A stretch of 64,000 bases of DNA, taken from contig JAGXAQ010000007.1 of the NCBI GenBank assembly GCA_018971485.1, positions 1 to 64,000 of the forward strand, written 5' to 3'. This DNA comes from Pseudomonadota bacterium. GTDB lineage: Bacteria; Pseudomonadota; Gammaproteobacteria; Burkholderiales; REEB80. Of the stretch, positions 1,401 to 63,838 are shown piece after piece. The position numbers and the translations under genes were made by a program. The notes beneath the pieces were generated by a model that was given only the letters and a program-made list of their open reading frames with translations, did no database searches and was not told where the DNA came from. How positions within the stretch are numbered: position 1 is the stretch's first letter; each line of letters begins with the position of its first letter.

Positions 1401-3791
1401 CTAGCCCAACACAGTAACCGGCTTCCATCGACGAAGCCACAAGGAACTCACGACTACAGACACCGAACTTAAGGCCATTGCTGCACCCGCAAGAATCGGA
1501 TTGAGCATCCCGATAGCAGCCAGGGGAATACCCATGATATTGTAGATAAAGGCAAAAAAGAGGTTCTGCCTGATTTTTCTTACCGTTGCCCGGGATAAAT
1601 CAAGGGCATCCACCACTGCCAGCAAATCGGAGTGCATCAAGGTCATGTCTGCCGTCTCGAGCGCAATGTCCGAACCCGTTCCCATGGCAAAGCTGACGTC
1701 ACTCACAGCCAGGGCTGGAGCATCATTGATGCCGTCACCCACCATCCCCACATGGTGACCCTCCTGCTGCATCTGCCTGATTCGGGCTGCTTTCTCCTCT
1801 GGTATGAGTTGCGCGTAAAACTCCCTGATTCCAGCTTTTCGAGCCAGAACCTCGGCGGTTTTAAGATGATCGCCTGTCATCATGACCACCTTCACCCCCC
1901 GTTGCTGTAACCGGGTCACTGCCTCAATACTGCTCGGCCGCAAGGCATCAGAAATAGCCAGATAGCCTAACACCTCTTTTTCCCGGGCCAGTGCGACAAC
2001 TGTTTTCGCTTCGGCACGAAAAGCTTCAGTCTGTTTCTCATCAAGGGCAACACCCATCTGCCCCAACCAGTCCAAAGATCCCAGCCACAGGTGCTCTCCA
2101 CCTACCTTTGCACTGACACCATGACCTGTCTTGGCATAAAATTCATCTATCGGCAAAAGCGCCAGCCCTTCCTTTTGGGCCTGCTGTCGCACTGCATGGG
2201 CCAGGGGATGCTCGGAGTCCTGCTCCAGTGAGGCAGCCAGCTGTAGAAGGGTTAATGCATTCACCCTGTCTGCATGGGGCAGCCAATCAGTCAGAACAGG
2301 TTTACCCCAGGTCAGGGTTCCGGTCTTATCGACGACCAGGGTATCCACCTGTCTTGCCTGCTCCAGGGCCTGGGCGTTGCGGATGAGGATACCTTCCTGG
2401 GCTCCCCGTCCCGTTCCAACCATGATGGCAGTCGGAGTACCCAGTCCCAAAGCACAAGGACAGGCAATGACCATCACCGCAACGGCATTGATAAGGGCAA
2501 CAGCCAAACTACTGCCAGCAACCAGCCAGCCAATGAAAGTGACCGCACTGATCAGGATCACCACCGGTACAAATACAGCGGAAACCTGATCTGCCAGATG
2601 CTGGATAGGAGCCTTGGATCCCTGGGCATCGCTGACCAGGCGAATGATTTTGGAGAGCATGGTCGTGCTGCCCACTCCCGTTGCCTGACAGCGCAAGGAT
2701 CCCTGTCCATTGAGCGTGGCAGCGAACACCCTGGCACCTGCCTCCTTTAGCTGGGGCAGGCTTTCACCCGTAAGCATGGATTCATTGACCTGTGAGGATC
2801 CGGACAGCACGATTCCATCTACAGGCAGGCTTTCACCCGGACGTACCAGAAAAATATCCCCGGTATTAACCTGACTGACCGGCCGATCAAGAACTGCCCC
2901 TTCTACCTCAACATGGGCAAGTCCCGGCTGCAGCCGGATCAATTTCTCAATCGCCCTGGAAGCGACCCGCTTGGCCTTGGCTTCCAGGAGTTTTCCCATC
3001 AGGATAAGGGTAACCAGTGTGGCGCTGGCCTCAAAATAGACAGGCAGAGGGCTGCCCAGCAAAACCACAATCGTGCTATAGAAATAAGCCATGCCCGTCC
3101 CCAGCACAACAAGCACATCCATGTTGGCCCCTCCTCCCCGTAACGCTTTCCAGGCGCCAGTATAAAAGCGCCTTCCAATCCAGAACTGGACGGGGGTAGC
3201 CAGGGCCCACTGACCCCAAAGGGGCAGCAGATAAGAAGGGTGTCCTACCGCCATCACGGCCATCTGGATCAACAAGGGCAGCGTCAGCACGACTGACAGT
3301 CCAAGAAGCCGAAGATCGCGGGCGTATGCTGCCTCTTTTTCAGGCTGATCACTCCCCGGATCAAGATGCGTGATGTCCTCTGCCCCGTATCCCGTCTTCT
3401 TAACCGCTTCAATCAACTGATCAACCGTTACAAGTCCGGGAACATACTCCACCCGGGCCTGCTCTGTAGCAAGGTTGACCGTGGCACTCACCCCGGGCAA
3501 CTGATTCAGCTGCTTTTCAATACGGGCGACACACGAGGCGCAGGTCATACCCGAAATCGCCAGAGTTGCTGTCCTGCCGGCCACACCATATCCGGCGCGC
3601 TCAATTGCCGTAACCAGGTCTGCCGGGCTGGACTGTCCGGGATCAAACTCGATTTGCGCCTGCTCGCTCACCGCATTGACCGATGCACTGACGCCCGGGA
3701 GGCGATTCAGGCTGCTTTCAACCCGAAGTGCGCAGCTGGAACAGCTCATCCCTTCAACCGGCAGTTCTATCCTTTTCATTGCTGAGTCCAC
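1401..3791 (-). CDS. copA: Cu(I)-exporting P-type ATPase
   Basis: About 796 residues, normal length for a P1B-1 copper ATPase. Two N-terminal HMA domains carry GMSCSSC and GMTCASC. Then come the membrane helices, the actuator motif TGES, the ion-binding CPC, the phosphorylation motif DKTGTLT, the nucleotide-domain SEHPLA, and the hinge [10 protein letters not shown]. The last helices carry the YN and MALSS residues expected for Cu(I). It moves Cu(I) from cytoplasm to periplasm. The frame runs to a GTG at 3800; GTG 3791 is preferred because AGGAG is 8 bases before it, while the ATG at 3779 has no good ribosome site. It is the first gene of a leftward operon with copZ and csoR. Confidence 0.93.
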
Positions 3792-3817
3792 TGTAGCCAC
3801 TCCTGTTCAATATACCC

Positions 3818-3848
3818 TATACCGGTATAATATACCCCTATTGGGTAT
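3818..3848 (-). promoter_or_regulatory. Tandem CsoR-type operator upstream of copA
   Basis: Two palindromes sit 27-57 bases upstream of copA. One is ATACCC-N5-GGGTAT at 3832-3848, the TACCC/GGGTA form known for CsoR operators. The other is a perfect TATACCGGTATA at 3818-3829. Both overlap an AT-rich stretch that could hold the promoter. That CsoR encoded at the end of the operon binds here is inferred. Confidence 0.65.
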
Positions 3849-4193
3849 TTTTGCAATCCCATAAGATCCAAAAAAAACCACCCTGTTTCTCTTCTTTATC
3901 GATTAGCTTACTGCAAGAAGGGTCCTTTAAATCCCTACCGCAGACCATTTGATTCAGGCCAACGCTCTTTTTATAGCAGAACATAATGAAGCCCTGCGAA
4001 CCGAACGAAATAAATCACTTTATCCTGCCAGAAGATTTGAACGGTTTTTTTCCACCCGTTGCATCCTGATCCGGTGTCTTCCTATTGAAAGAATCCCAGA
4101 ATATACTTGTATTTCTAATTTAGACGATATATATTTCGCTTTAATACGAAATATACAACCGGGCATTTGACTACTTAATACAGGATCCTTCCC
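3849..4193. other. Intergenic region between divergent copA and arsR-type genes
   Basis: About 345 bases without a convincing gene. A 73-codon frame at 3949-4170 has no ribosome site and no recognisable domain. The only structure noted is the palindrome at 4130-4155 listed separately. Confidence 0.5.
4130..4155 (+). promoter_or_regulatory. Palindromic operator of the ArsR-type gene
   Basis: TATATTTCG at 4130-4138 is the exact inverse of CGAAATATA at 4147-4155, with an 8-base spacer, ending 38 bases before the ArsR-type start. A perfect 9+9 inverted repeat in the promoter position is typical of an autoregulated winged-helix repressor. Binding is inferred. Confidence 0.6.
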
Positions 4194-4514
4194 ATGACTG
4201 GCTCACCTGTCCTAACGCCTGACTTTGACGAGATTATCAAGGCGCTGGCCCATCCGGTTCGACGAAACATCCTCAGGTGGCTTAAAACCCCTGAAGAGTC
4301 TTTCACCAGCCAGGAGCACCCCTTTGAGTTCGGGGTGTGTGCCGGCAAGATTTTCAGCAAGGCTGACCTGTCACAATCTACCGTGTCGGCCCATCTGGCG
4401 ACCCTGCAGCACGCGGGACTTATCACACCACGCAAGATAGGCCAGTGGATTTTCTATTCCCGCAATGAACCCCTCATTGCCCAGTTTCTAGACCATATGC
4501 ACCATGATCTTTAA
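4194..4514 (+). CDS. ArsR/SmtB-type winged-helix regulator
   Basis: A 106-residue single-domain regulator. The N-terminal part reads ALAHPVRRNILRWL and the recognition helix region reads LSQSTVSAHLATLQHAGLI, both typical of ArsR-family winged helices. A single Cys lies in FGVCAGKIF just before the HTH; there is no ELCVCDL metal-binding motif, so a metal is unlikely and a redox or electrophile signal through Cys is possible. It is followed after 24 bases by an Old Yellow Enzyme gene, which by analogy with NemR-NemA suggests that it senses reactive electrophiles, though NemR itself is a TetR protein. Confidence 0.8.
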   Translation: MTGSPVLTPDFDEIIKALAHPVRRNILRWLKTPEESFTSQEHPFEFGVCAGKIFSKADLSQSTVSAHLATLQHAGLITPRKIGQWIFYSRNEPLIAQFLDHMHHDL

Positions 4515-4538
4515 CCGCTTTCATTCAAGGAGACCCCA

Positions 4539-5615
4539 TTGAACAGCTTATTTGACCCCATCCGGATTGGATCACTGATTCTGCCTAACCGCATCATCCT
4601 CGCTCCCCTGACGCGTTGCCGCGCCAGCAACGGACGTACCCCCAATGCACTGATGGCTGAATACTACGCCCAAAGGGCAAGTGCCGGCCTCATCCTGAGC
4701 GAGGCTACCTCAGTGACTCCCCAAGGCGTAGGTTACCCTGACACTCCTGGTATCTGGTCTGAGGACCAGGTTAAGGGATGGTCTGCTGTCACAAGAGCCG
4801 TCCATGCCGCAGGAGGCCGCATGTTCTTGCAGTTGTGGCACGTCGGCCGGGTCTCCCATCCCGATTTTCTGAATGGTGAGCTTCCGGTGGCGCCGAGCGC
4901 CATTGCGCCTGAAGGACATGTCAGCCTGCTTAAGCCTGCCAGGGATTACGTCACGCCCAGGGCTCTTGATCCGGATGAAATCCCGGGCATCATTGACGCC
5001 TATCGCCAGGGGGCAGAAAATGCCAAACGGGCAGGGTTTGACGGGGTGGAAATCCATGGGGCCAATGGTTACCTGCTCGACCAGTTCCTGCAAGACAGCA
5101 CCAACCAGCGTAAGGATGACTATGGCGGCTCAATCGAAAACCGGGCCCGCCTGATGCTGGAAGTGACCGATGCAGTCCTGTCCGTCTGGGGAGCCGATCG
5201 GGTCGGCATGCATCTTGCACCCCGGGGAGACGCCATGTCGATGGGCGACTCCAATCCCCTGGCCACCTTTGGTTATGTGGCACAGGAACTGGGCAAGCGC
5301 AAACTTGCCTTTATCTTCACCCGTGAACATCAGGGGCCAGACAGCATCGGCCCCCAACTGAAACACCACTTTGGAGGTCCTCTCATTGCCAATGAAGGCT
5401 ATACCCTGGAGTCAGCCTCAAATGCCTTAAAGCAGGGCAATGCAGATGCCATTGCTTTTGGCAAGCTCTTTATCGCCAACCCGGACTTACCTTACCGCCT
5501 GCACCTGAATGCACCGCTCAATGCCTTTCACCCTGAAACGTTTTATGGTTATGGGCTTGCGGATCACCGCATCGGCTATACAGACTACCCTGTCCTGGAA
5601 CAGAAAGTCGCGTAA
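4539..5615 (+). CDS. Old Yellow Enzyme, NemA-type alkene reductase
   Basis: This 358-residue FMN flavoprotein should reduce activated C=C bonds (enals, enones, nitroesters, maleimides) with NAD(P)H in the cytoplasm. It shows the classical OYE pieces: PLTRCRA near the N-terminus, LWHVGRVSHP, the substrate-binding pair His173/Asn176 in IHGANGYLLDQF, and the YGGSIENRARL loop. The start is a TTG at 4539 with a perfect AAGGAG six bases upstream; no ATG is better placed. It lies in the ArsR-OYE-SDR cluster and is probably co-regulated with the ArsR-type gene. Confidence 0.88.
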   Translation: MNSLFDPIRIGSLILPNRIILAPLTRCRASNGRTPNALMAEYYAQRASAGLILSEATSVTPQGVGYPDTPGIWSEDQVKGWSAVTRAVHAAGGRMFLQLWHVGRVSHPDFLNGELPVAPSAIAPEGHVSLLKPARDYVTPRALDPDEIPGIIDAYRQGAENAKRAGFDGVEIHGANGYLLDQFLQDSTNQRKDDYGGSIENRARLMLEVTDAVLSVWGADRVGMHLAPRGDAMSMGDSNPLATFGYVAQELGKRKLAFIFTREHQGPDSIGPQLKHHFGGPLIANEGYTLESASNALKQGNADAIAFGKLFIANPDLPYRLHLNAPLNAFHPETFYGYGLADHRIGYTDYPVLEQKVA

Positions 5616-8149: not shown

Positions 8150-9184
8150 TCAGGCCTTTCCTGCCTTTTCAGGTTCCTGGATGGCTTTTTTTAAAGCAAC
8201 GCGCCGAACTACAGGTGAGCCGATATAGGCCGAAGTAATTCCCATGCGATGATGTCCGAGTTCCTCGGCAAGCCGTAACCGGATCTGCTCTACTGTCAAC
8301 CTGACTGGCACTATCTCCTGCTGCTGGCGCAACGGGGGCACCCATCCCCACTGCTCACAGCGATCATTGGCCCAACCATGACGCAGGCCATGGCTTGTGA
8401 CACCCAGTCCCTTCCTGGTCAGACCATATTTCGCCATGGTATTGGAAAAGTGCCTGATAGCCTGGCGCTGCGTATACCGTAAATCGCTTAAATGGGATCT
8501 CCGGGAAGCAGTCATCCTCTTGGCCTCATCAAGCACCTGTCGCTGATAGGCTGTGCTAATCACCACATCGCGAACCCGCCCGCCTTTCGTGCCTTCAGTC
8601 ACATACAGCCTGTCCCCATAGTCAGCCCGCCAGGGCCGGATCGACACCGCTTCTTCCCGGCGAAGACCAAAGGCATGCATCATCTTAAGCTCCATGGCCA
8701 CATAAGGATCGTCCCGGGCTATCCATTCAAACACATATTCAGGGTCAATTCCTTTTTTCAGCCAGGATTTTTCTTCCAGGGCAACATAATGGCGCCTGAT
8801 TCGGGACGGATCGCGAACATAGCGGATACTTTCCTTGACCATGCCCCGCTTGCCTATGCACTCATTGGCAAACACACGTAAATTGGAAATCCGGTTCTGC
8901 AAAGTCGAAGCAGACAAACCTTGCTCCTCCCACCTAAGCATCACCCAATGGACATGTTTTTCCTTGAGGTTGCGCGGCATGACCCTGTACCCATTCGCCC
9001 ACAGCACCCGAAAGGTCAAAAACAGGTTATGCTTGAATACATCCTTGGTCAGATCAGCCACATAACGACCCCTGGTCTTCGGATCAAAACGGGTCTTGAT
9101 ATACCCCATCAACTCGGCTTTCCAGGACAGGTAAGTCGGGTGCGGGAAAGGGTGTGACGTTCTATTGTGCATGATTTTTCCCAT
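8150..9184 (-). CDS. Tyrosine recombinase / integrase
   Basis: A 344-residue integrase of the kind with a phage-integrase N-terminal SAM-like domain followed by an Integrase_1 catalytic domain. Visible catalytic parts are Arg in FGLRREEAVSIRP, HGLRHGWANDR for the H-x-x-R box, and GHHRMGITSAYIG for the second H and the nucleophilic Tyr. It cuts and rejoins DNA between attachment sites in the cytoplasm. ATG 9184 is preferred over the TTG at 9346: AAAGGGA sits about 8 bases upstream. The enzyme appears intact. No flanking direct repeats or tRNA gene could be identified, so the element's ends remain unknown. Confidence 0.8.
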   Translation of the reverse strand: MGKIMHNRTSHPFPHPTYLSWKAELMGYIKTRFDPKTRGRYVADLTKDVFKHNLFLTFRVLWANGYRVMPRNLKEKHVHWVMLRWEEQGLSASTLQNRISNLRVFANECIGKRGMVKESIRYVRDPSRIRRHYVALEEKSWLKKGIDPEYVFEWIARDDPYVAMELKMMHAFGLRREEAVSIRPWRADYGDRLYVTEGTKGGRVRDVVISTAYQRQVLDEAKRMTASRRSHLSDLRYTQRQAIRHFSNTMAKYGLTRKGLGVTSHGLRHGWANDRCEQWGWVPPLRQQQEIVPVRLTVEQIRLRLAEELGHHRMGITSAYIGSPVVRRVALKKAIQEPEKAGKA

Positions 9185-9215
9185 GACGGATTCCCTTTGT
9201 AACCGGAGCAGAAAG

Positions 9216-9539
9216 TCAGGACACCAGGCCAGCCAGACGCCGTAAACCATCCAAGTCCTCCTGTGGGGCCTGAGCGATATGTAAAACGCCCTCGCACTTA
9301 TTCCCACAGGAGACACGGACAAACCGGCCCAACGCCTTATTTTCAACTTCCTGGTGATTCAGCAGATCCTTGTATTTCTGGCCGGATCTACCTCCTGGGC
9401 TAGGACGCGGCACAAGGCCGCGATCATCCGGTTTTTGATACCGGAAAACAGATATCCCATCCTGCTGGCTTATCATGAAGGGGCCATTCCCTGCTGCGAC
9501 CACAAGGACCTCATGGGCATATAAGCCAGGACAGTTCAT
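9216..9539 (-). CDS. Small hypothetical protein upstream of the integrase
   Basis: A 107-residue frame ending 31 bases before the integrase start, in the same direction. It is not recognised. The second half is hydrophilic and helix-prone (KYKDLLNHQEVENKALGRF, then CGNKCEG, then QEDLDGLRRLAGL), which looks more like real protein than noise, but there is no good ribosome site before ATG 9539. It could be the first gene of the integrase transcript. Confidence is limited. Confidence 0.4.
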   Translation of the reverse strand: MNCPGLYAHEVLVVAAGNGPFMISQQDGISVFRYQKPDDRGLVPRPSPGGRSGQKYKDLLNHQEVENKALGRFVRVSCGNKCEGVLHIAQAPQEDLDGLRRLAGLVS

Positions 9540-11816: not shown

Positions 11817-12404
11817 ATGCACGCTTTTCTTGTTTCCCTCGGTATTGTCTTCCTGGCCGAAATCGGAGATAAAACCCAAATCCTGTCCCTGGCCCTGGCA
11901 TCGCGCTACCGCCAGCCTATTCCCATCACCTTGGGTGTCTTCAGTGCCACACTCATCAGCCACGCCCTGGCTGGAGGAATCGGGCGTATCCTGTCCCATG
12001 TTCTCAACCCGTCATGGCTGAACTGGGCCATCGTTGCCTCCTTCATCCTGATGGGAGTATGGATGCTTGTCCCGGATTCACCAGAGTCTGATGAAACTGC
12101 CGAAGAACCAAAACGCTGGGGGATATTCAACACCACCTTAATCCTGTTTCTGGTAGCCGAAATGGGAGACAGAACCCAGATAGCCACCCTGGCCCTGGCC
12201 GCCCGCTATCATGACTTCTTTGAGGTTGTCGCAGGGGCCACTTTGGGCATGATGCTCGCGAATGTCCCGGTCATTTACCTCGGCCGGCGTTTTTCTGGAC
12301 AGCTACCGGAAAAAACCATCCGGATCCTGACCGCTCTCATTTTCGTAACCATGGGGGCCATGGCGCTCCACCACGCCCTGACCCAGCAAAACAGTCTGCC
12401 CTGA
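11817..12404 (+). CDS. UPF0016/Gdt1 family Mn2+ (Ca2+) exporter
   Basis: A 195-residue membrane protein with two homologous halves, each with the signature acidic motif: AEIGDKTQILSLALASRY near residue 14 and AEMGDRTQIATLALAARY near 112, linked by a charged loop (SPESDETAEEPKR). About six transmembrane helices are expected. Family members (TMEM165/Gdt1, bacterial Mnx/MneA) export Mn2+ or exchange Ca2+/Mn2+ with H+. GGAG lies eight bases before ATG 11817. The upstream yybP-ykoY riboswitch strongly supports Mn2+ as the regulating and probably transported ion. Confidence 0.88.
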   Translation: MHAFLVSLGIVFLAEIGDKTQILSLALASRYRQPIPITLGVFSATLISHALAGGIGRILSHVLNPSWLNWAIVASFILMGVWMLVPDSPESDETAEEPKRWGIFNTTLILFLVAEMGDRTQIATLALAARYHDFFEVVAGATLGMMLANVPVIYLGRRFSGQLPEKTIRILTALIFVTMGAMALHHALTQQNSLP

Positions 12405-12813
12405 TCCGGAACAGAAAAACCGGCTTGATTCATTATAATCAGGAGAACCAGCTTCTAATTTCACTGGATGGGGAACTAATTGCATAAAAACGGGTCTGTA
12501 CCGGACAGGTTAAAAAATGAACCCGAAAATATCTGTCCAGCTGACTATCCGGATTTATGTCTCCTGAAAGACAAAACAGCTTTCCTTTTGTGACCGGACC
12601 TGCTTTCATGTCTTGACAAAAGACCAAAAAACCGGCCTTTAACGGATAGGCCCAAGACCAGATTGGTTCAAATGACCTGAAAAGAACAAGACACATGAAA
12701 TCCGTCATCTACGCTCCAAGCCGTCATGTGCAAGGTATCCACAAATCAAGATGATTCAGAAGGGTTCCGAATCATCCGGATGAATATTGTTCATTATGAA
12801 GAGGAATCAGCCT
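12405..12813. other. Intergenic region before the glucoamylase operon
   Basis: About 409 bases with no credible gene; an 89-codon leftward frame at 12439-12708 has no domain. A TTGACA at 12613-12618 is not followed by a good -10 box. The promoter of the sugar operon is presumably here. Confidence 0.45.
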
Positions 12814-15180
12814 ATGGCAAACACCCAGGATGTCACCCCACGAAACGATGCCCCTCGGGCCTTGTCTGTCTATCCGGCCTGGTCCTGTGCGAAAAAGGAT
12901 GCTATCGGCAAGGCACTCGGAACATCGCGCCTGTGGTTTACTTTGGCCCAGGGTATTGTGACCGAAGTCTATTTTCCCCGGCCCGATATCCCGCAACTCA
13001 AGGATCTTGGATTTATCATCGCCGATAATGCAGGTTTCTGGGTAGAACTTCGGCGAATGAACCAGTATTCTGTCAGCTGGCACGAAGATGTAATCCCCGC
13101 TATCACCCTGACTCACCGTCACGAGCGGTTCACCTTTACACTCAGGATCTGTGTCGATCCCGATCGGGATGTACTGCTGCTGGATTTTTCCCTTGAAGGC
13201 GAACCCGGCCTGTACCCCTATGTCCTGGCTGCACCAAGGCTCGGAGAAAACGCCACATCCAATCTGGCCCTGGCTGCCGACTGGGAGGGCCATCCTACCC
13301 TATGGGTCGAGCAGGGGCCCTTTGGTCTCGCCCTGATGGCAACAAACCGCCAGAACAGGACTGCCTTCATGGAACGTTCTGTAGGTGAGGTAGGCGTCAG
13401 TGACGGCTGGCAGGATTTCAACCAGAATGGCCGGATGAACTGGCATTATGCCAAGGCTGGTCCATCAGATGTGGCGCTCACCGCAAAACTCTCCCGGAGC
13501 GGAACACTGGCCTTAGGCCTTGGAAGCAGCAAGGAAGCCGCGGCCACCCTGGCCCTGCAGTCGCTGGCCGCAGGCTTTGAATCGCGATGGACAGGCTACA
13601 CCCAATCCTGGAAAAGCTGGCTGGATGGCATTCACCTGCCTGCCTTGCTCCAGAAACTCGACAAGGCATCCAGGCTGCTCATTTTCCGCTCTGCGGTCGT
13701 CATCAAGAGCCATGAGGATGCCACGTTTCCAGGAGCCTGTGTGGCAAGCCTGTCTGTGCCCTGGGGAGAAAGCAGCGTCAGCCGGGGAGGATATCATCTG
13801 GTCTGGTCACGCGATCTCGTTGAAACCGCTGGAGCCCTCATTGCATTAGGCTGCCTGAACGAGGCAAGACGTATCCTGCTGTACCTGATGGCCACCCAGC
13901 AGGCCAATGGCCACTGGCTGCAGAACCAGTGGCTGGGGGGCAAGCCTTTCTGGCAGGGGATCCAGCTTGATGAAACCGCCTTTCCGGTCCTGCTGGCCAG
14001 TGCCCTGGCAGAACAGGATGCCCTTGAAGGAATTGATGTCACACACATGACTCGCCAGGCCCTGCGCTTCATTGCACAAGAAGGCCCTACCACCTCCCAG
14101 GACCGCTGGGAAGAAGATGCCGGCATCAATACCTTTACCCTGGCAGCTGCCATTTCAGCCTTGGTAGAAGGCAGCCGTTTCCTGAAAGGGAAGGAAGCCG
14201 AATGTGCCCTGATGCTTGCTGATTCCTGGAATAGCCAGCTGGAAAAATGGACCTGGGCATCTGATACGGCCTTATCCAGAAAACTGGGAATAGACGGATA
14301 TTACATGCGTTGCGCTCCAACTGATACGCTCATTCATGATGGGGCAAGACATGAAGCCCTGCTCATCAAGAACCGTGCCCAGGATCCGGGACTTAAGGCA
14401 GATGAGCAACTCGCCGGGGATTGCCTTCAGCTTGCCCGCTATGGACTTCGCCTTGCAACGGATCCCGCCTTGATGTCCAGTATCCAGGGCATTGATGCCC
14501 TGCTCAAGACCGATACACCCAATGGACCCGTCTGGCACCGCTACAATGGGGATGGATACGGGGAACACCGTGATGGATCCCCTTTTGATGGCTGTGGAAG
14601 AGGCCGTGGATGGCCTTTGCTGACCGGAGAGCGAGGTCACTTCGCCCTGCTGGCCGGAGAAAACGCCAGGCCCTATCTTCGGGCCATGACCAGAATGACA
14701 GGGCCGGGAGGATTATTGCCTGAACAGGTCTGGGACAGTGATCCGATTCCAGAGCACGATCTGTTTCCCGGACAGCCAAGCGGGTCGGCCATGCCACTGG
14801 TCTGGGCCCATGCCGAATATATCAAGCTGGCATTAAGCCTGGCTTCCAAAGCACCAGTCGATAGGCCTGCACGCACCTTTGCCCGTTATGGCGGAAAAAA
14901 ACCGGTCCTGGATTATGCCCTCTGGCAGCCCAAGGTTCAGCTGCATGAACTGGCCCAGGGCCAGGCATTACGGTTCCTGCTCCCTGAACCCGCACTCGTA
15001 CACTGGGGGAAAAATGGCTGGAAAACCATCCAGGATGAGCCAACGCAGGACTGGGGCTTAGGCCACGTCGCTATCCTGGCCACATCAGGCTTTTCCCGTG
15101 GCACCACCATCGAATTTACCTTTTACTGGCCTCAATCGAATACCTGGCAACAGGAAGATTTTCAAATCAACATCACCTGA
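12814..15180 (+). CDS. Glycoside hydrolase family 15 glucoamylase/glucodextranase
   Basis: A 788-residue protein: an N-terminal beta-sandwich domain of the bacterial glucodextranase type (residues 20-270), then the (a/a)6 catalytic barrel. GYHLVWSRDLVETAGAL binds the substrate; the putative general acid is Glu433 or Glu434 in DRWEEDAGINTFTLAA and the base Glu606 in LTGERGHFALL. It should release beta-glucose from non-reducing ends of alpha-glucans. No signal peptide is seen, so it acts in the cytoplasm, on maltodextrin, isomalto-oligosaccharide or trehalose rather than external starch. GAGGA lies eight bases before ATG 12814; earlier in-frame ATG 12796 and TTG 12787 are less likely. First gene of a four-gene operon. 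Confidence 0.88.
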   Translation: MANTQDVTPRNDAPRALSVYPAWSCAKKDAIGKALGTSRLWFTLAQGIVTEVYFPRPDIPQLKDLGFIIADNAGFWVELRRMNQYSVSWHEDVIPAITLTHRHERFTFTLRICVDPDRDVLLLDFSLEGEPGLYPYVLAAPRLGENATSNLALAADWEGHPTLWVEQGPFGLALMATNRQNRTAFMERSVGEVGVSDGWQDFNQNGRMNWHYAKAGPSDVALTAKLSRSGTLALGLGSSKEAAATLALQSLAAGFESRWTGYTQSWKSWLDGIHLPALLQKLDKASRLLIFRSAVVIKSHEDATFPGACVASLSVPWGESSVSRGGYHLVWSRDLVETAGALIALGCLNEARRILLYLMATQQANGHWLQNQWLGGKPFWQGIQLDETAFPVLLASALAEQDALEGIDVTHMTRQALRFIAQEGPTTSQDRWEEDAGINTFTLAAAISALVEGSRFLKGKEAECALMLADSWNSQLEKWTWASDTALSRKLGIDGYYMRCAPTDTLIHDGARHEALLIKNRAQDPGLKADEQLAGDCLQLARYGLRLATDPALMSSIQGIDALLKTDTPNGPVWHRYNGDGYGEHRDGSPFDGCGRGRGWPLLTGERGHFALLAGENARPYLRAMTRMTGPGGLLPEQVWDSDPIPEHDLFPGQPSGSAMPLVWAHAEYIKLALSLASKAPVDRPARTFARYGGKKPVLDYALWQPKVQLHELAQGQALRFLLPEPALVHWGKNGWKTIQDEPTQDWGLGHVAILATSGFSRGTTIEFTFYWPQSNTWQQEDFQINIT

Positions 15181-15192
15181 AAGGAGCCCATC

Positions 15193-15978
15193 ATGATTGG
15201 GATTGATTTATCCGGCCGTCGCGCACTGGTCACTGGAGCAAGCTCAGGACTGGGCCGCTCCATTGCCTGCCACCTGGCCCGGTGCGGTGCCAGGGTTGCC
15301 ATCAATTACCTCAAGGATGGCAAAGCTGCTGACGCTGTTGTAAGCGAAATCAGGCAGTCAGGTGGAGAGGCATTTGCCGTACAGGCCAATGTCAGTGAAA
15401 AGACGGAAGTGGACCGTCTTTTTTCCGCAGTGGACACGACATTGGGAGGGCTGGATATCCTGGTCAACAATGCCGGCATGGATGGCCTGCGCGAAAACTG
15501 TGCCCAGAGCGAACCGGACCACTGGGAATCGGTCCTGAAAGTTGATTTGTTCGGTCCTTATTACTGTACCCGGCAGGCCCTTTTACGCATGCAACCCCAG
15601 AAAAAAGGGGTCATCCTCCAGGTCACCTCCGTTCATGAATTCATTCCCTGGGCAGGCTATAGTGCCTATACCAGTGCCAAGGCAGCCTTATCCATGTTTA
15701 CCAAAAGCGTGGCCCAGGAAGTCGCCCAGGAGGGGATTCGCGTCCTTGCCATTGCCCCCGGAGCCATCCAGACTCCCATCAATCAGAGTGTCTGGGGCAA
15801 TCCGGACACCCTGCGGGATCTGGATCTCAAGATCGCCATGAACCGGCTGGGCCAGCCCGAGGAAATCGGGCGCGTGGCAGCTTTTCTGGTTAGCGATCTG
15901 GCAAGTTACATCACCGGTACGACCGTGGCCGTGGATGGCGGCATGCTCATTTATCCGGATTTCAGTCATGGCGGCTGA
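15193..15978 (+). CDS. Glucose 1-dehydrogenase-like SDR
   Basis: A 261-residue classical SDR, the length of Bacillus glucose 1-dehydrogenases, with the same C-terminal form (...DGGMLIYPDF). TGASSGLG binds the cofactor, VNNAG stabilises it, and the catalytic Tyr159-x3-Lys163 lies in YTSAK. The likely reaction is beta-D-glucose + NAD(P)+ to gluconolactone. Its position 12 bases after a glucoamylase gene supports glucose as substrate, since that enzyme releases free beta-glucose. AAGGAG precedes ATG 15193. It overlaps the GMC gene by 11 bases. Confidence 0.8.
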   Translation: MIGIDLSGRRALVTGASSGLGRSIACHLARCGARVAINYLKDGKAADAVVSEIRQSGGEAFAVQANVSEKTEVDRLFSAVDTTLGGLDILVNNAGMDGLRENCAQSEPDHWESVLKVDLFGPYYCTRQALLRMQPQKKGVILQVTSVHEFIPWAGYSAYTSAKAALSMFTKSVAQEVAQEGIRVLAIAPGAIQTPINQSVWGNPDTLRDLDLKIAMNRLGQPEEIGRVAAFLVSDLASYITGTTVAVDGGMLIYPDFSHGG

Positions 15979-17503
15979 TCTTGACGCAGATATCCTGATT
16001 ATCGGCAGCGGAGCAGGCGGGGGCACCCTGGCCCGGGCCCTGGCTCCTAGCGGCCTGTCCATCCTGGTTCTGGAACGCGGAGACTATTTGCCCCGGGAAA
16101 AGGAAAACTGGGATGCCTCGTCTGTCTTTCAGACCCATCGCTATCATACCGATGAACACTGGTATGACCGCACCAACGAACCTTTCTCGCCGATCACGGG
16201 ATATCAGGTAGGAGGGAACACCAAATTTTATGGGGCGGCGCTTTTACGACGCCGGGTCCAGGATTTTGAAAGCCGCACCCACGTCGACGGAACAACGCCC
16301 GCCTGGCCTCTTAAATATGATGATTTTGCGCCCTATTATGACCAGGCGGAATCGTGGTATTTCGTTCATGGAACAACCGGGCTGGATCCGAATGAACCCC
16401 CCCGCCTGGCCTATCCCTACCCCGCCTTGATGCAAGAACCCAGAATGGAAGCTATCCGCCTGGCCCTTCTAAAACAGGGACTGCATCCATTCCCCTTGCC
16501 CATGGCCTTGAACCGGAATGAAAGCGATCCCAGGAAAAGTCCTTGCATCCGCTGCGATACCTGTGACGGATTCCCCTGCCTGCTGCATGCCAAGGGGGAT
16601 GCTGAAACCTGTGGCATTACACCGGCCCTGGCTTATCCCAATGTGACACTGCTGACCCGAACCCGTGTCCTGCGCCTGCTAAGCAGCAAAGGGCGGCACC
16701 TTACAGGAGTAGAAGCACAAGGCCCTGATGGACCCCGGTGTTTCAGGGCAAAAATGTATGTCCTTGCTGCAGGCGCCATCCATTCAGCTGCCCTGCTCCT
16801 CCAGTCCGCCTGCGATGCAGCTCCGCAAGGCCTGGCCAATCGCTCTGACCAGGTTGGCCGCAATTACATGTGCCACCTGAATAGTGCCTGCATTGCCCTT
16901 GATCCCAGAAAAGCCAATCCAACCCTGTTTCAGAAAACACTCGCCATCAATGATTTTTATGATGACTCCCGAAACCCTGGCTTCCCCTTTCCCCTGGGCC
17001 ATATCCAGAACCTGGGCAAAGTCACCCCTGCCATCCTGCATGCCCAGCGCCCCCGCCTTCCTTCAGCATTATGCACCTGGATAGCCAGGCACTCTGTCGA
17101 TTGGTGGCTGACCACCGAAGATCTGCCCCACCCGGATAACCGGGTCATCCTCAAACCTGACGGCCATATCCAGTTATGCTACCGTCCCAGCAATGAAGAA
17201 GCCCACCTGCGCCTGCTCGTACAGTGGAAAAAGATCCTGCGCCAGCTCGGCTTCATCGGAGTCTTCTTTGAACGCATGGGAATTGGTGCGGTCGCCCACC
17301 AGGTCGGTACCCTGCGTTTTGGCGACCATCCGGAGCAAAGCGTACTCAACCGTGACTGCCGTACCCACGATATTGACAATCTCTATGTGGCTGATGCCTC
17401 ATTCATGCCTTCCATTTCGGCAGTCAACCCGTCCTTGACCATCATGGCCAATGCCCTGCGCATAGCCAGCCATCTGGGCCAGAAAGCGGCTGAAGGCCTG
17501 TGA
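15968..17503 (+). CDS. GMC family FAD oxidoreductase
   Basis: A 511-residue glucose-methanol-choline oxidoreductase. The FAD-binding motif GSGAGGG spans residues 13-19, LERGDYLPRE follows, and the catalytic pair is His444 (VAHQVGT) and Asn487 (SAVNPSLTIMANALR). A cysteine cluster CIRCDTCDGFPC lies near residue 195; similar clusters occur in GMC proteins of unknown substrate. No Tat or Sec signal is present, so it is cytoplasmic or membrane-associated. ATG 15968 overlaps the glucose dehydrogenase stop; an upstream ATG at 15935 lies inside that gene. The operon suggests a sugar or polyol substrate and electron transfer to a quinone or cytochrome, which is inference. Confidence 0.83.
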   Translation: MAADLDADILIIGSGAGGGTLARALAPSGLSILVLERGDYLPREKENWDASSVFQTHRYHTDEHWYDRTNEPFSPITGYQVGGNTKFYGAALLRRRVQDFESRTHVDGTTPAWPLKYDDFAPYYDQAESWYFVHGTTGLDPNEPPRLAYPYPALMQEPRMEAIRLALLKQGLHPFPLPMALNRNESDPRKSPCIRCDTCDGFPCLLHAKGDAETCGITPALAYPNVTLLTRTRVLRLLSSKGRHLTGVEAQGPDGPRCFRAKMYVLAAGAIHSAALLLQSACDAAPQGLANRSDQVGRNYMCHLNSACIALDPRKANPTLFQKTLAINDFYDDSRNPGFPFPLGHIQNLGKVTPAILHAQRPRLPSALCTWIARHSVDWWLTTEDLPHPDNRVILKPDGHIQLCYRPSNEEAHLRLLVQWKKILRQLGFIGVFFERMGIGAVAHQVGTLRFGDHPEQSVLNRDCRTHDIDNLYVADASFMPSISAVNPSLTIMANALRIASHLGQKAAEGL

Positions 17504-18660
17504 AGCCTTTCAGCTTTTTATCATCGGTTGCTCTTTATGGGGCCGGGTTTCTTCAAGGAAGTGCTTTTGTCCTGATTCCTGCCTTAGGCAATCTCTTAAG
17601 CCTGCCCCCCTATCATTTCAGTGCATCTGCCTATGGCCTGCTGTTTCTACCCCAGACAGCGGGCGCTATCCTCGGGGCGACCGCGGCTGGCAGTATCCAG
17701 CGACGGTTCGGCATGATTCGGCTCTATCGGCTCGGCCTTTTGTGCAACATCATCGCCTTGCTCCTGCTTTATGGTGCATCAACCCACCCGGGGCAGTTGA
17801 GCTATCCCCTGATACTTGCAGACAGCCTTTTCATGGGATTGGGCTTTGGCTGGACCGTAGCGGCCATCAACCATTATTCAGCCCATTTTTTCAGCGCAAG
17901 ATCCAGCATGGCCATCACACTGCTTAATGCCGTGATAGGAGGGGCTACCGCCTTGTCCCCCCTTTTACTCCATGCCCTGACCGAACAGGGTCACTGGGGA
18001 ACATGGCCATTGATACTGGCTATCGGCTGGATCCTCATTACCTTGATTCATCTGCCCCAGATTCTGGCCGATCCCCAGTCCATTTTCTGGCCGCGATCCC
18101 TGAGCCCTTTTTTCCTCATGGTCCTGGTTTATGCACTCTGTGAAGGAAGTTTTGGCAGCTGGGCCAGTGTTTATCTTCACACAACTGCCCATCCAGGCAG
18201 CCAGGCAGGCACACTTGCCCTGTCAGCCTTCTGGGGGAGCATGACCTGCTTTCGCCTCCTTCTTGCCCCCTTGCCCGAAACATGGCTCTCCCGCCGGAAA
18301 CTGCTGCTGCTCTCAGCAACCGGCATCGCCGCCTGTTTTATCCTCATCCCCCTTTCATCCAGTACAGGCGTGCTTATTGCCCTGTTTGCCTGCGCAGGAG
18401 CTGCCTGCAGCATTTATTACCCATTTACCATGGCATTAAGCCTTGCCCGTTTTCCAGAGGAAAACACCCAGGTTGCCGGATTGCTCGTGGCAGCACTCAT
18501 GATGGGAGAAGGAATCGGTTCCTATGGGATAGGCTGGCTGCAGGCCTTCTTCAGCCTAAAGAGCCTCTACCTTGCCAGCGCCGTGTGGGGGATTTTCCTG
18601 TTCATTGGTGCCTGGTACATGACCCGGGCACAACGCTCCACTTCCCCGCTCTCAAAATGA
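17500..18660 (+). CDS. Major facilitator superfamily transporter
   Basis: A 386-residue membrane protein with about twelve hydrophobic segments and the short GSIQRRFGMIRLYR loop between helices 2 and 3 typical of MFS proteins. The start is GTG 17500, which overlaps the stop of the GMC gene in GTGA, so translation is coupled. The substrate cannot be read from sequence; within this operon a sugar, oligosaccharide or aldonate is the most likely cargo. It is the last gene of the GH15-GDH-GMC-MFS operon. Confidence 0.8.
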   Translation: MKPFSFLSSVALYGAGFLQGSAFVLIPALGNLLSLPPYHFSASAYGLLFLPQTAGAILGATAAGSIQRRFGMIRLYRLGLLCNIIALLLLYGASTHPGQLSYPLILADSLFMGLGFGWTVAAINHYSAHFFSARSSMAITLLNAVIGGATALSPLLLHALTEQGHWGTWPLILAIGWILITLIHLPQILADPQSIFWPRSLSPFFLMVLVYALCEGSFGSWASVYLHTTAHPGSQAGTLALSAFWGSMTCFRLLLAPLPETWLSRRKLLLLSATGIAACFILIPLSSSTGVLIALFACAGAACSIYYPFTMALSLARFPEENTQVAGLLVAALMMGEGIGSYGIGWLQAFFSLKSLYLASAVWGIFLFIGAWYMTRAQRSTSPLSK

Positions 18661-61086: not shown

Positions 61087-61451
61087 GCGAGAACGAGATA
61101 TCCGGCACACAGGCCTTTATCACCGATCCCGACGTAGGATATGACATTTCACCCATTCGGGAGCACATCATAAAGACACTCCAGACGCTCTATGATCCCG
61201 AGATTCCAGTCAATATTTATGATCTGGGGCTCATTTATGAACTTGGTTTTTCTAAGGATCATGGCATATGTATCAGGATGACCCTGACTACGCCTCATTG
61301 CCCCGTTGCCCAATCCCTGCCCCAAGAAGTAAAAGCAGCCATTGAGGCACTACCTGATATCGCTTATGCCCATGTGGAAGTCGTCTGGGATCCGCCCTGG
61401 TCAAGCGATCGCATGTCCGATGCAGCCAAGCTTCAACTCGGAATGCTCTAG
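61083..61451 (+). CDS. sufT: SufT, MIP18/DUF59 Fe-S maturation factor
   Basis: A 122-residue DUF59 protein ([75 protein letters not shown]) with the conserved Cys in PHCP. Such proteins help deliver clusters to targets. It ends the suf operon; its stop codon region overlaps the end of the convergent xfp gene by 4 bases. Confidence 0.9.
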
Positions 61452-63838
61452 CCCCCTTTCCATGTCCAGTCACGAATCTCGGGCATGTCTTCACCATGCT
61501 CCCGGGTATAAAGAACATGCTCCCTTAACTTGTCATAAAGATACTGCCTGGCCTGAGCAGCACTCTCACTAAGGCCTGGAACACGCTCAATCACGTCCAG
61601 GACAAGATGAAACCGGTCCATGTCATTTAGTACCAGCATGTCAAAAGGAGTCGTTGTCGTTCCGTTCTCCTTATAGCCACGCACATGAAAATGGGCATGA
61701 TTGGTTCGCCTGTAGACCAGCCGGTGAATAAGCCAGGGGTAACCATGAAATGCGAAGATGACCGGTTTATCCCGCGTAAACAGGGCATCAAAATCCTCAT
61801 CCGCAAGCCCATGTGGATGTTCCGTTTCAGGCTGGAGGGTCATCAGATCCACAATGTTGATCACCCTGACCCTAAGACGGGGAAACCACTGCCGGACAAT
61901 CATGACCGCTGCAAGGGTTTCAAGCGTAGGTACATCACCACAGCAGACCATCACGACATCCGGTTCCGCTCCATTATCAGTACTGGCCCATTGCCAGATA
62001 CCCAGCCCCTGCGTGCAGTGACGAACAGCCTCTTCCATATCTAACCACTGCCACTCCATCTGCTTTCCCGCCACGATCACGTTAACGAAATCCCTGCTGC
62101 GCAGGCAATGATCCGTAACAGAAAGGAGCGTATTGGCATCCGGGGGCAGATAAACCCGGATAATATCCGCCTTCTTGTTCACAACATGGTCGATAAAACC
62201 AGGATCCTGATGACTGAACCCATTATGATCCTGCCTCCAGACATGGGATGTCAGCACTATGTTTAATGAAGCTATGGGTCGTCGCCATGGAATCTCCTTA
62301 GAGACTTTCAGCCATTTTGCGTGCTGGTTGAACATGGAATCCACAATATGGATGAACGCCTCATAACAGGAAAAAATCCCATGCCGCCCCGTCAGAAGAT
62401 AGCCCTCAAGCCACCCCTGACACTGATGTTCGCTGAGCATTTCCATGACCCGGCCATCCTGGGCAACATGCTCATCGCCTGGTAGAAGGGTGGCAACCGA
62501 ACAGCGGTCCGTTACTTCAAACAAGGCATTCCAGCGATTTGACGCTGTTTCATCAGGGCTAAAGACCCTGAAATTGGCCGATTCCATATTAAGCTGCATG
62601 ACATCGCGGATATAGGTGCCCTGAACACGGGTCGCTTCTGCCTGGATAGCCCCTGGATAGGGCACTTGAAGCGCATAGTGATGAAAATCAGGCAAGTGCA
62701 GATCCTTCAGCAAAAGCCCTCCATTGGCATGAGGGTTGGCTCCAAGCCTGCGTTCCCCTTTGGGGGCAATGTCGGCCCAATCTGCCTTGGGACATCCTGC
62801 CGAATCAAAAAGCATTTCTGGATGATAGCTTTTCATCCAGGTTTCCAGAATCTGAAGATGATGGGGATGATCCCGAAAATCTGTAACAGGGACCTGATGT
62901 GCGCGAAAGGTTCCCTCAATCGCTTTACCATCCACCTGCTTTGGTCCAGTCCAGCCCTTGGGGGATACCAGGATAATCATGGGCCAGCGAGGACGGCTGA
63001 ATTTCTTTTTCCGTCTTGCCTCATTCTGAATCTGTCTGATTATGGCAGTCACCTCATCCAGGGTCGCTGCCATCTTCTGGTGCATGAAACAGGGATCCTC
63101 CCCTTCCACAAAATAAGGTCTGTATCCATATCCTAAAAAAAGTGACCTCAGTTCCTGCCTGCTCATGCGGGCCAGCACAGTCGGACCAGCAATCTTGTAT
63201 CCATTCAGATGCAAGATGGGCAGGACCGCACCATCCCGTATCGGATTAAGAAACTTATTGGAATGCCACCCCGTTGCAAGTGGACCTGTTTCCGCTTCCC
63301 CATCCCCGACAACACATGCAACCAGCAAATCGGGGTGATCAAATGCTGCGCCATAAGCATGGGCAAGACAGTAGCCCAGCTCCCCGCCTTCATGAATAGA
63401 ACCAGGGGTCTCCGGCGCTGCATGGCTGGGAATGCCTCCAGGAAAGGAAAACTGCCTGAACAGTTTTTTTAATCCCGGGGCATCCCGGGTAACCTCCGGA
63501 TAACGCTCGGTGTAACTTCCTTCCAGGTAAGTCTGGGCGATGAGGGCAGGTCCACCATGACCCGGGCCGGTAATCAGGATCATGTCCTTATCCTGTTCAG
63601 TGATAATCCGGTTAAGGTGAACATAAATAAAATTCAGGCCAGGCGTTGTTCCCCAGTGCCCCAGCAGCCGCGGCTTGACATGACTCAGATGAAAGGGGGT
63701 CTGCAGCAACGGATTGTCCAGCAGATAAATCTGGCCCACTGAAAGGTAATTGGCCGCCCGCCAGTATGCATCCATTTTCTGCATCCATTCAGGCATGGGA
63801 TTTTTTTGCTGGATTGGGCGCAAGCCTGCGGTCATCAT
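61448..63838 (-). CDS. xfp: Phosphoketolase (Xfp)
   Basis: A 796-residue thiamine-diphosphate enzyme of normal length. It splits xylulose 5-phosphate (and often fructose 6-phosphate) with phosphate into acetyl phosphate and an aldose phosphate. [19 protein letters not shown] near residue 90, the ThDP fold [30 protein letters not shown], and the C-terminal domain ending [19 protein letters not shown] are all family-typical. Its ATG overlaps the stop of ackA in ATGA, so acetyl phosphate is passed to acetate kinase to make ATP. Confidence 0.95.

Follow-up and report, generated by a model that had tools for sequence, protein, structure and literature searches.

A linked set of glucosidase, glucose dehydrogenase, flavoprotein and transporter genes that may oxidise the glucose of stored alpha-glucan in the cytosol

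We have analysed a stretch of 64,000 nucleotides from a bacterium of the Burkholderiales, hereafter the window, which harbours a compact operon of four genes encoding a glucosidase of glycoside hydrolase family 15 (GH15), a short-chain dehydrogenase/reductase (SDR), a flavoprotein of the GMC family and a transporter of the MFS type. In the reading that we favour, with a probability of about one half, the operon oxidises glucose from stored glucan in the cytosol without spending ATP, by the successive action of GH15, SDR and GMC, the MFS protein then exporting the product. The GH15 and SDR steps are well supported by sequence and gene linkage, and the linkage itself, together with a second, phosphorylating route in the same genome, is supported by sequence and gene context; as to the substrate and electron acceptor of the GMC protein, the nature of its cluster and the direction of the transporter, we infer them. 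The best evidence that a glucosidase, a glucose dehydrogenase, the GMC protein and the transporter act together comes from two related loci in which the first two members of the set have been exchanged for others.

Results

Conservation of the gene set and replacement of two of its members

A scan of genome contigs for the GMC gene with six peptide patterns, one of them the cysteine motif of the protein, yielded 198 relatives, of which the best 80 loci were retained; the neighbour counts given throughout are raw tallies without a random-gene background. A close group of 38 loci, whose GMC proteins are 58–75% identical to that of the window, comes from Acidithiobacillus, Igneacidithiobacillus, Sulfuriferula, Gallionellaceae, a Steroidobacteraceae bin and further proteobacterial bins. 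Within this group the SDR is found in 35 loci, the MFS gene in 35 and GH15 in 24, all four being present in 19, so that the linkage which a sequence-only reading of the window had proposed to look for is indeed recovered. The order is GH15-GMC-MFS-SDR in four of the 19 complete loci (L028, L032, L034, L035), and the operon stretch contains broken frames in L031 and L038. The MFS gene is missing from L029 and L033, which are at contig ends, and is absent from L006; the SDR is missing from L071, also at a contig end, and from L027 and L036, where a zinc-dependent glucose dehydrogenase is matched instead.

In L027 this zinc enzyme is confirmed by the Pfam family Glu_dehyd_C; in L036 it is a tblastn match of 48%, and a frame guessed for it has no Pfam match because the zinc enzyme lies in the frame of GH15. 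Both loci retain the GMC and MFS genes, and their GH15 proteins belong to a lineage linked to glucokinase. Indeed, in a tree of 37 GH15 rows the window protein groups with other operon copies (17 rows with support 96/100; 21 rows with 96/99), and a separate group (100/99) holds a second GH15 of the same genome, its counterpart in the genus and the proteins of L027 and L036; trehalase-type rows fall apart from the window protein, and the long branches flagged by the program lie outside the groups used. The tree and the matches thus indicate that in L027 and L036 the same GMC and MFS genes have come together, convergently, with a GH15 of a different lineage and an unrelated type of glucose dehydrogenase. 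That a glucose dehydrogenase unrelated to the SDR takes its place in these loci fits glucose oxidation as the role of this position.

A match to an NDH-2-like flavoprotein lies near the operon in nine of the 38 close loci (L006, L015, L020, L026, L030, L031, L037, L038, L071). This protein, which could hand the electrons of NADH made by the SDR to quinone, matches NDH2_C below the cut-off and reaches no NCBIfam cut-off, and we take it as a lead only. Separately, L004 carries upstream of its SDR-GMC-MFS genes (1457-5074) a GH92 protein whose C-terminal part is a lactonase-like propeller.

Organization of the operon

A check of the open reading frames located all four genes on the plus strand, and Pfam assigns to them, in order, Glucodextran_N with Glyco_hydro_15, SDR, GMC_oxred_N/C and MFS_1. 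The features are the following:

12814..15180, plus strand, GH15 alpha-glucosidase of the glucodextranase/glucoamylase type (788 residues; Pfam PF09137, PF00723)
14110..14112, plus strand, GH15 Glu433, equivalent to Glu438 of 1lf6 (alignment, codon checked)
14722..14724, plus strand, GH15 Glu637, equivalent to Glu636 of 1lf6 (alignment, codon checked)
15181..15186, plus strand, AAGGAG, ribosome-binding site of the SDR gene (sequence, inside the GH15-SDR gap)
15193..15978, plus strand, SDR, glucose 1-dehydrogenase-like (261 residues; PDB matches, NCBIfam)
15628..15639, plus strand, SVHE motif of the SDR, common to Bacillus glucose 1-dehydrogenase (alignment, survey)
15968..17503, plus strand, GMC flavoprotein with the fold of FAD glucose/fructose dehydrogenases (511 residues from ATG 15968; Pfam, AlphaFold2)
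16544..16579, plus strand, GMC cysteine cluster CIRCDTCDGFPC (Cys193, 196, 199, 204), probable iron-sulfur ligands (alignment, comparison with the Burkholderia enzyme BcGDH)
17297..17299, plus strand, GMC catalytic His444, equivalent to BcGDH His476 (alignment; invariant in 48/48)
17426..17428, plus strand, GMC Asn487, equivalent to BcGDH Asn519 (alignment; invariant in 48/48)
17500..18660, plus strand, MFS transporter (386 residues; Pfam MFS_1, AlphaFold2)

The GH15 and SDR genes are spaced by 12 bases, within which the AAGGAG is found, and the GMC and MFS genes overlap by the 4 bases GTGA (17500-17503). The longest GMC frame (15935-17503) would overlap the SDR gene by 44 bases; as several relatives begin near ATG 15968, 33 bases after the start of that frame, we consider this the likelier start, and the overlap is then 11 bases. 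The layout described in the sequence-only reading, a 12-base gap and two overlaps, is thereby confirmed, and since the gene order is conserved in relatives, a chance arrangement of the four genes is very unlikely.

The glucosidase

The first protein of the operon matches PF09137 (E 1.3e-69) and PF00723 (E 9.8e-28, 97.6 bits against a cut-off of 22) and aligns across most of its length with the glucodextranase 1ug9 and the glucoamylase 1lf6, with which it shares the Glucodextran_N and catalytic domains and both catalytic glutamate positions. We take Glu438 of 1lf6 to be the general acid and Glu636 the general base, and thus presume the same roles for Glu433 and Glu637; with its catalytic domain and both glutamates kept, the protein belongs to GH15. 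The enzymes of this family are inverting and their product is beta-glucose, and the operon enzyme likely releases beta-D-glucose from alpha-glucan. Unlike in 1ug9 and 1lf6, no signal peptide is seen: a simple hydropathy scan of the N-terminus reveals no hydrophobic stretch of that type, which makes the cytosolic location already put forward in the sequence-only reading a reasonable one. That reading had also left the choice between glucan and trehalose as the source of glucose; trehalose is less likely than alpha-glucan because the N-terminal domain is Glucodextran_N and TREH_N (PF19291) finds no match at E up to 0.001. On the grounds of this domain, a trehalase function was considered and rejected.

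The putative glucose dehydrogenase

The nearest solved structures of the SDR are the Bacillus glucose 1-dehydrogenases (best match 1rwb, E 2.9e-56), which bears out its earlier description as glucose 1-dehydrogenase-like. It has in common with these NAD(P)-dependent enzymes its length of 261 residues, the SVHE motif, YxxxK and the C-terminal YPxF tail; unlike them, it is encoded in an operon with a GMC protein and a glucosidase. Of two curated NCBIfam models it passes NF005559 (224.7 bits, cut-off 215) and falls short of NF006493 (235.6 bits, cut-off 420). Oxidation of glucose at C1 with NAD(P)+ to gluconolactone is well supported, by sequence and linkage, as its predicted activity.

The GMC flavoprotein

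By sequence and by predicted fold, the nearest solved relatives of the GMC protein are the large subunits of the Burkholderia FAD glucose dehydrogenase (BcGDH) and the Gluconobacter fructose dehydrogenase (FDH). Its AlphaFold2 model (pLDDT 90.1) gives 9jqa and 8grj as top matches with both Foldseek and VIA-align, with a Foldseek TM-score of 0.84 on the query for 9jqa and a VIA-align Z of 37.7 with an rmsd of 3.0 over 485 aligned residues. The next structural group is that of the pyranose 2-oxidase and C-glycoside oxidase folds, with Z of about 30–32.

The structural account of the Burkholderia enzyme describes a 3Fe-4S cluster bound by Cys212, Cys218 and Cys222, FAD carried by His105, and Asn475 positioned for glucose recognition (PMC6719666). 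Like these membrane complexes, the window protein has the fold (VIA Z about 37), the catalytic His/Asn pair and, in the corresponding position, a cluster of cysteines. It differs from them in the spacing of the cysteines, CX2CX7C instead of CX5CX3C, and in the residue Phe87 at the position of the flavin-linking His105; in addition, the small subunit Gluconate_2-dh3 (PF13618, the one family tested) has no match in the genome, and there is no cytochrome c gene among the four of the operon, the set within which it was sought. The protein thus uses the BcGDH/FDH fold, but the cysteine spacing, Phe87, an alanine (Ala443) at the place of Asn475 and the lack of a Gluconate_2-dh3 match set it outside the three-subunit membrane enzymes as these are defined. 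We found no characterised member of this subgroup.

The cysteines pointed out in the sequence-only reading are present, and it is the spacing given there, CxxCxxC, that has to be amended: the cluster reads CIRCDTCDGFPC, and the near-invariant set is Cys193, Cys196 and Cys204. These three are present in all 48 aligned sequences, a conservation which for the genome loci is partly built in, the motif having been one of the search patterns; they also occur in 13 of the 14 members from plasmids, which were retrieved without use of the motif, the exception being L101. The middle Cys199 varies in distant members and is kept in five of the 14.

The transporter

A sequence profile of the MFS protein matches no solved transporter in the PDB. 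Its AlphaFold2 model (pLDDT 88.6) yields generic MFS matches, the best aligned folds being those of antiporters, for example VMAT; SotB and NorA are listed too, and FucP is among the Foldseek matches. These leave the direction of transport undecided. We thus conclude nothing on the substrate from the structure.

A parallel phosphorylating route in the same genome

The genome (G000; 1.93 Mb in 35 contigs, rated 100% complete) holds two separate GH15 genes, one set with a glucose dehydrogenase and the other with a glucokinase. The latter GH15, on contig C4, passes the glucan 1,4-alpha-glucosidase equivalog TIGR01535 (743.1 against 741.9) and is convergent with a glucokinase gene passing TIGR00749, their 3' ends overlapping (L086 7529-10972); G001, the other genome of the genus, carries this pair too (L133 6783-10193). 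Contig C32 carries glgA, gnd, zwf, pgl, pgi, glgB and glgC together with a GH57 gene. With a glucokinase at hand, glucose can be phosphorylated, and the proposal of the sequence-only reading that it is oxidised instead of being phosphorylated is contradicted by the glucokinase next to the second GH15 and by the presence of glgA/glgB/glgC and zwf-pgl-gnd; we have rejected it. The search for glucokinase and gluconate dehydratase that the same reading had suggested was positive for the former and negative for the latter, the sole ILVD_EDD protein being IlvD (archaeal-type enzymes lay outside the search). Likewise, KDPG aldolase (PF01081) is absent from the genome, and no gluconokinase of the GntK type (TIGR01313) or the FGGY family (PF00370) was found, other kinases lying outside this search. 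Re-entry of gluconate by gluconokinase or the Entner-Doudoroff route was rejected as far as these families go, and the oxidised product therefore has no obvious way back.

Among 41 genomes, the own and 40 relatives, the GMC gene occurs at high identity in G000 and G001 only; G026 and G023 carry copies at 52% and 48%, respectively. For comparison, an account of four Ferrovum strains assigns glucokinase and apparent glucose-polymer storage only to the F. myxofaciens strains (PMC4886054). Near the glucokinase pair of the present genome, L086 also contains a TonB-receptor-like frame (12079-14136, minus strand) with a central run of more than 20 glycines.

Distant loci and plasmids

In the other 42 genome loci, the GMC gene is near an SDR in 30 (of the SVHE type in 13), a zinc-dependent glucose dehydrogenase in five, an MGH1/GH63-like hydrolase in 13, a trehalase-type GH15 in three, an aquaporin-family gene in 12, oxidase genes in two (L069, L076) and a gluconolactonase in three. 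The TREH_N domain was found in L058. Many of the remaining loci, chiefly from filamentous cyanobacteria, differ both in the type of SDR and in the other genes nearby.

The GMC protein further matches 475 plasmid records, from which we sampled 14 of 30 listed rows, picked for variety of organisms; six were read first and eight after the neighbours of those had been seen, each being chosen without knowledge of its own neighbours. L094 and L100 are unannotated and their neighbours come from tblastn only. Six of the 14 (L091, L092, L093, L095, L100, L101) have genes for a cytochrome or quinol oxidase close to the GMC gene, four have a gluconolactonase match there and one (L093) an adjoining gluconokinase. 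An isolated cyoA match in L096, where no other oxidase gene is found, was excluded from this count. In L101 (7923-13455) quinol-oxidase genes follow the GMC gene with a 4-base overlap, and the GMC protein is there devoid of cysteines 193 and 204. Altogether, many unrelated bacteria have the GMC gene together with genes for glucose oxidation, and the distant neighbours point to sugar acids and respiration. Also near the GMC gene, in several phyla, is a glyoxalase-like protein of the VOC type, about 365 residues long, present in seven of the 42 genome and five of the 14 plasmid loci (for example L042 9499-10602).

Discussion

In the mechanism that we propose, GH15 would cut beta-D-glucose off stored alpha-glucan and the SDR, using NAD(P)+, would turn this into gluconolactone by oxidation at C1. 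As a soluble relative of the membrane FAD glucose/fructose dehydrogenases, the GMC protein would carry out a second, FAD-dependent oxidation, of a sugar or sugar acid, its electrons passing by the cysteine-bound cluster to an acceptor, probably the quinone pool, and the MFS protein would take the oxidised product out of the cell. The operon would work alongside the phosphorylating route, in which the second GH15 and glucokinase would feed zwf-pgl-gnd. In acetic acid bacteria and pseudomonads, direct oxidation of glucose is periplasmic and acts on outside glucose; the route proposed here would likewise take glucose to gluconate and oxidise it further with no phosphorylation step, and is unlike it in being placed, by our interpretation, in the cytosol and on stored glucan.

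A number of observations weigh against this mechanism. Excretion of sugar acids would be costly for a cell that builds glycogen. The operon GH15 differs from 1ug9 and 1lf6 in remaining, with 563.4 bits, under the TIGR01535 cut-off of 741.9 that the second GH15 of the same genome passes, and the SDR differs from the Bacillus enzymes in scoring 235.6 bits against NF006493, under its curated cut-off of 420. At Asn475 of BcGDH, a presumed glucose contact, where the window protein has Ala443, the aligned sequences have alanine in 37 of 48 and glycine in 10 of 48. As to linkage, GH15 is unmatched in 14 of the 38 close loci, in four of which (L023, L026, L030, L071) the upstream sequence is too short, unlike in the other ten; oxidase, gluconolactonase and gluconokinase are each found near the GMC gene in none of these 38 loci, their links coming from members only 46–53% identical to the window protein; and in 17 of the 30 loci of other phyla having an SDR this lacks SVHE and is mostly of a different type.

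Other explanations were weighed against the same data. The SDR and the GMC protein might both oxidise glucose at C1, in parallel, the former with NAD(P)+ and the latter, as a soluble glucose dehydrogenase, with FAD and the quinone pool. The retained His/Asn pair and the fact that an FAD glucose dehydrogenase is among its closest solved structures by sequence speak for this; we nevertheless hold it unlikely, given that the glucose-contacting asparagine is not kept, that fructose dehydrogenase folds match equally well and leave the substrate undecided, and that a second C1 dehydrogenase in the operon would be superfluous. A variant in which the GMC protein attacks a glucoside, or glucose at C2 or C3, the SDR handling or reducing the keto product in the manner of 3-keto-sugar pathways, draws on the pyranose 2-oxidase and C-glycoside oxidase folds being its next best structural group, and GMC enzymes that modify sugars in this way are known. 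The resemblance of the SDR to C1 glucose dehydrogenases, its replacement by a zinc-dependent glucose dehydrogenase and the ordinary hydrolase character of the linked glycosidases make this distinctly unlikely.

We give slightly less credence again to an operon for the uptake of outside glucose or maltodextrin, with the MFS protein as importer and GH15 acting on imported oligosaccharides: the MFS superfamily includes many sugar symporters and FucP is among the matches of the model, but the profile has no match among solved transporters, the VMAT-like antiporter folds do not decide the direction, and the glycogen locus supplies an internal substrate. Trehalose in place of glucan is highly improbable, since the window GH15 carries Glucodextran_N, is unmatched by TREH_N and stands apart from the trehalase-type rows of the tree; what speaks for it are the trehalase-type GH15 genes near distant GMC members (L058, L066, L079, L092, L093, L100).

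The oxidation of stored glucan by the four proteins, if correct, hints at an overlooked, ATP-free burning of reserves within the cell; judging from titles and the openings of abstracts, we found no paper describing this operon. More tentatively, and with greater doubt than confidence, the GMC protein may found a widespread, mobile group of soluble, cytosolic iron-sulfur flavin dehydrogenases that deliver electrons from intracellular sugar directly to the quinone pool and need neither small nor cytochrome subunits, many phyla having perhaps repeatedly built a 'sugar respiration' module around it. On this same tentative view, the parts of the module would be a glucosidase of one of several families, a glucose dehydrogenase with one or the other of two unrelated folds, either a transporter or an aquaporin and, in some cases, an oxidase of its own. 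Establishing the substrate of the GMC protein would help to name the many genes annotated as 'GMC family oxidoreductase' across phyla, among them those of the 475 plasmid records.

Other features of the window

A promoter scan, in which 3.4 sites were expected, gave a single promoter-like site, on the minus strand, and a terminator scan gave 11 terminator-like sites where 6.7 were expected; neither outcome was used. About 3.5 kb upstream of the operon there is an integrase-like open reading frame (Integrase_1; 8150-9346, minus strand), and a phosphoketolase with the domains XFP_N, XFP and XFP_C is encoded at 61448-63838 on the minus strand.

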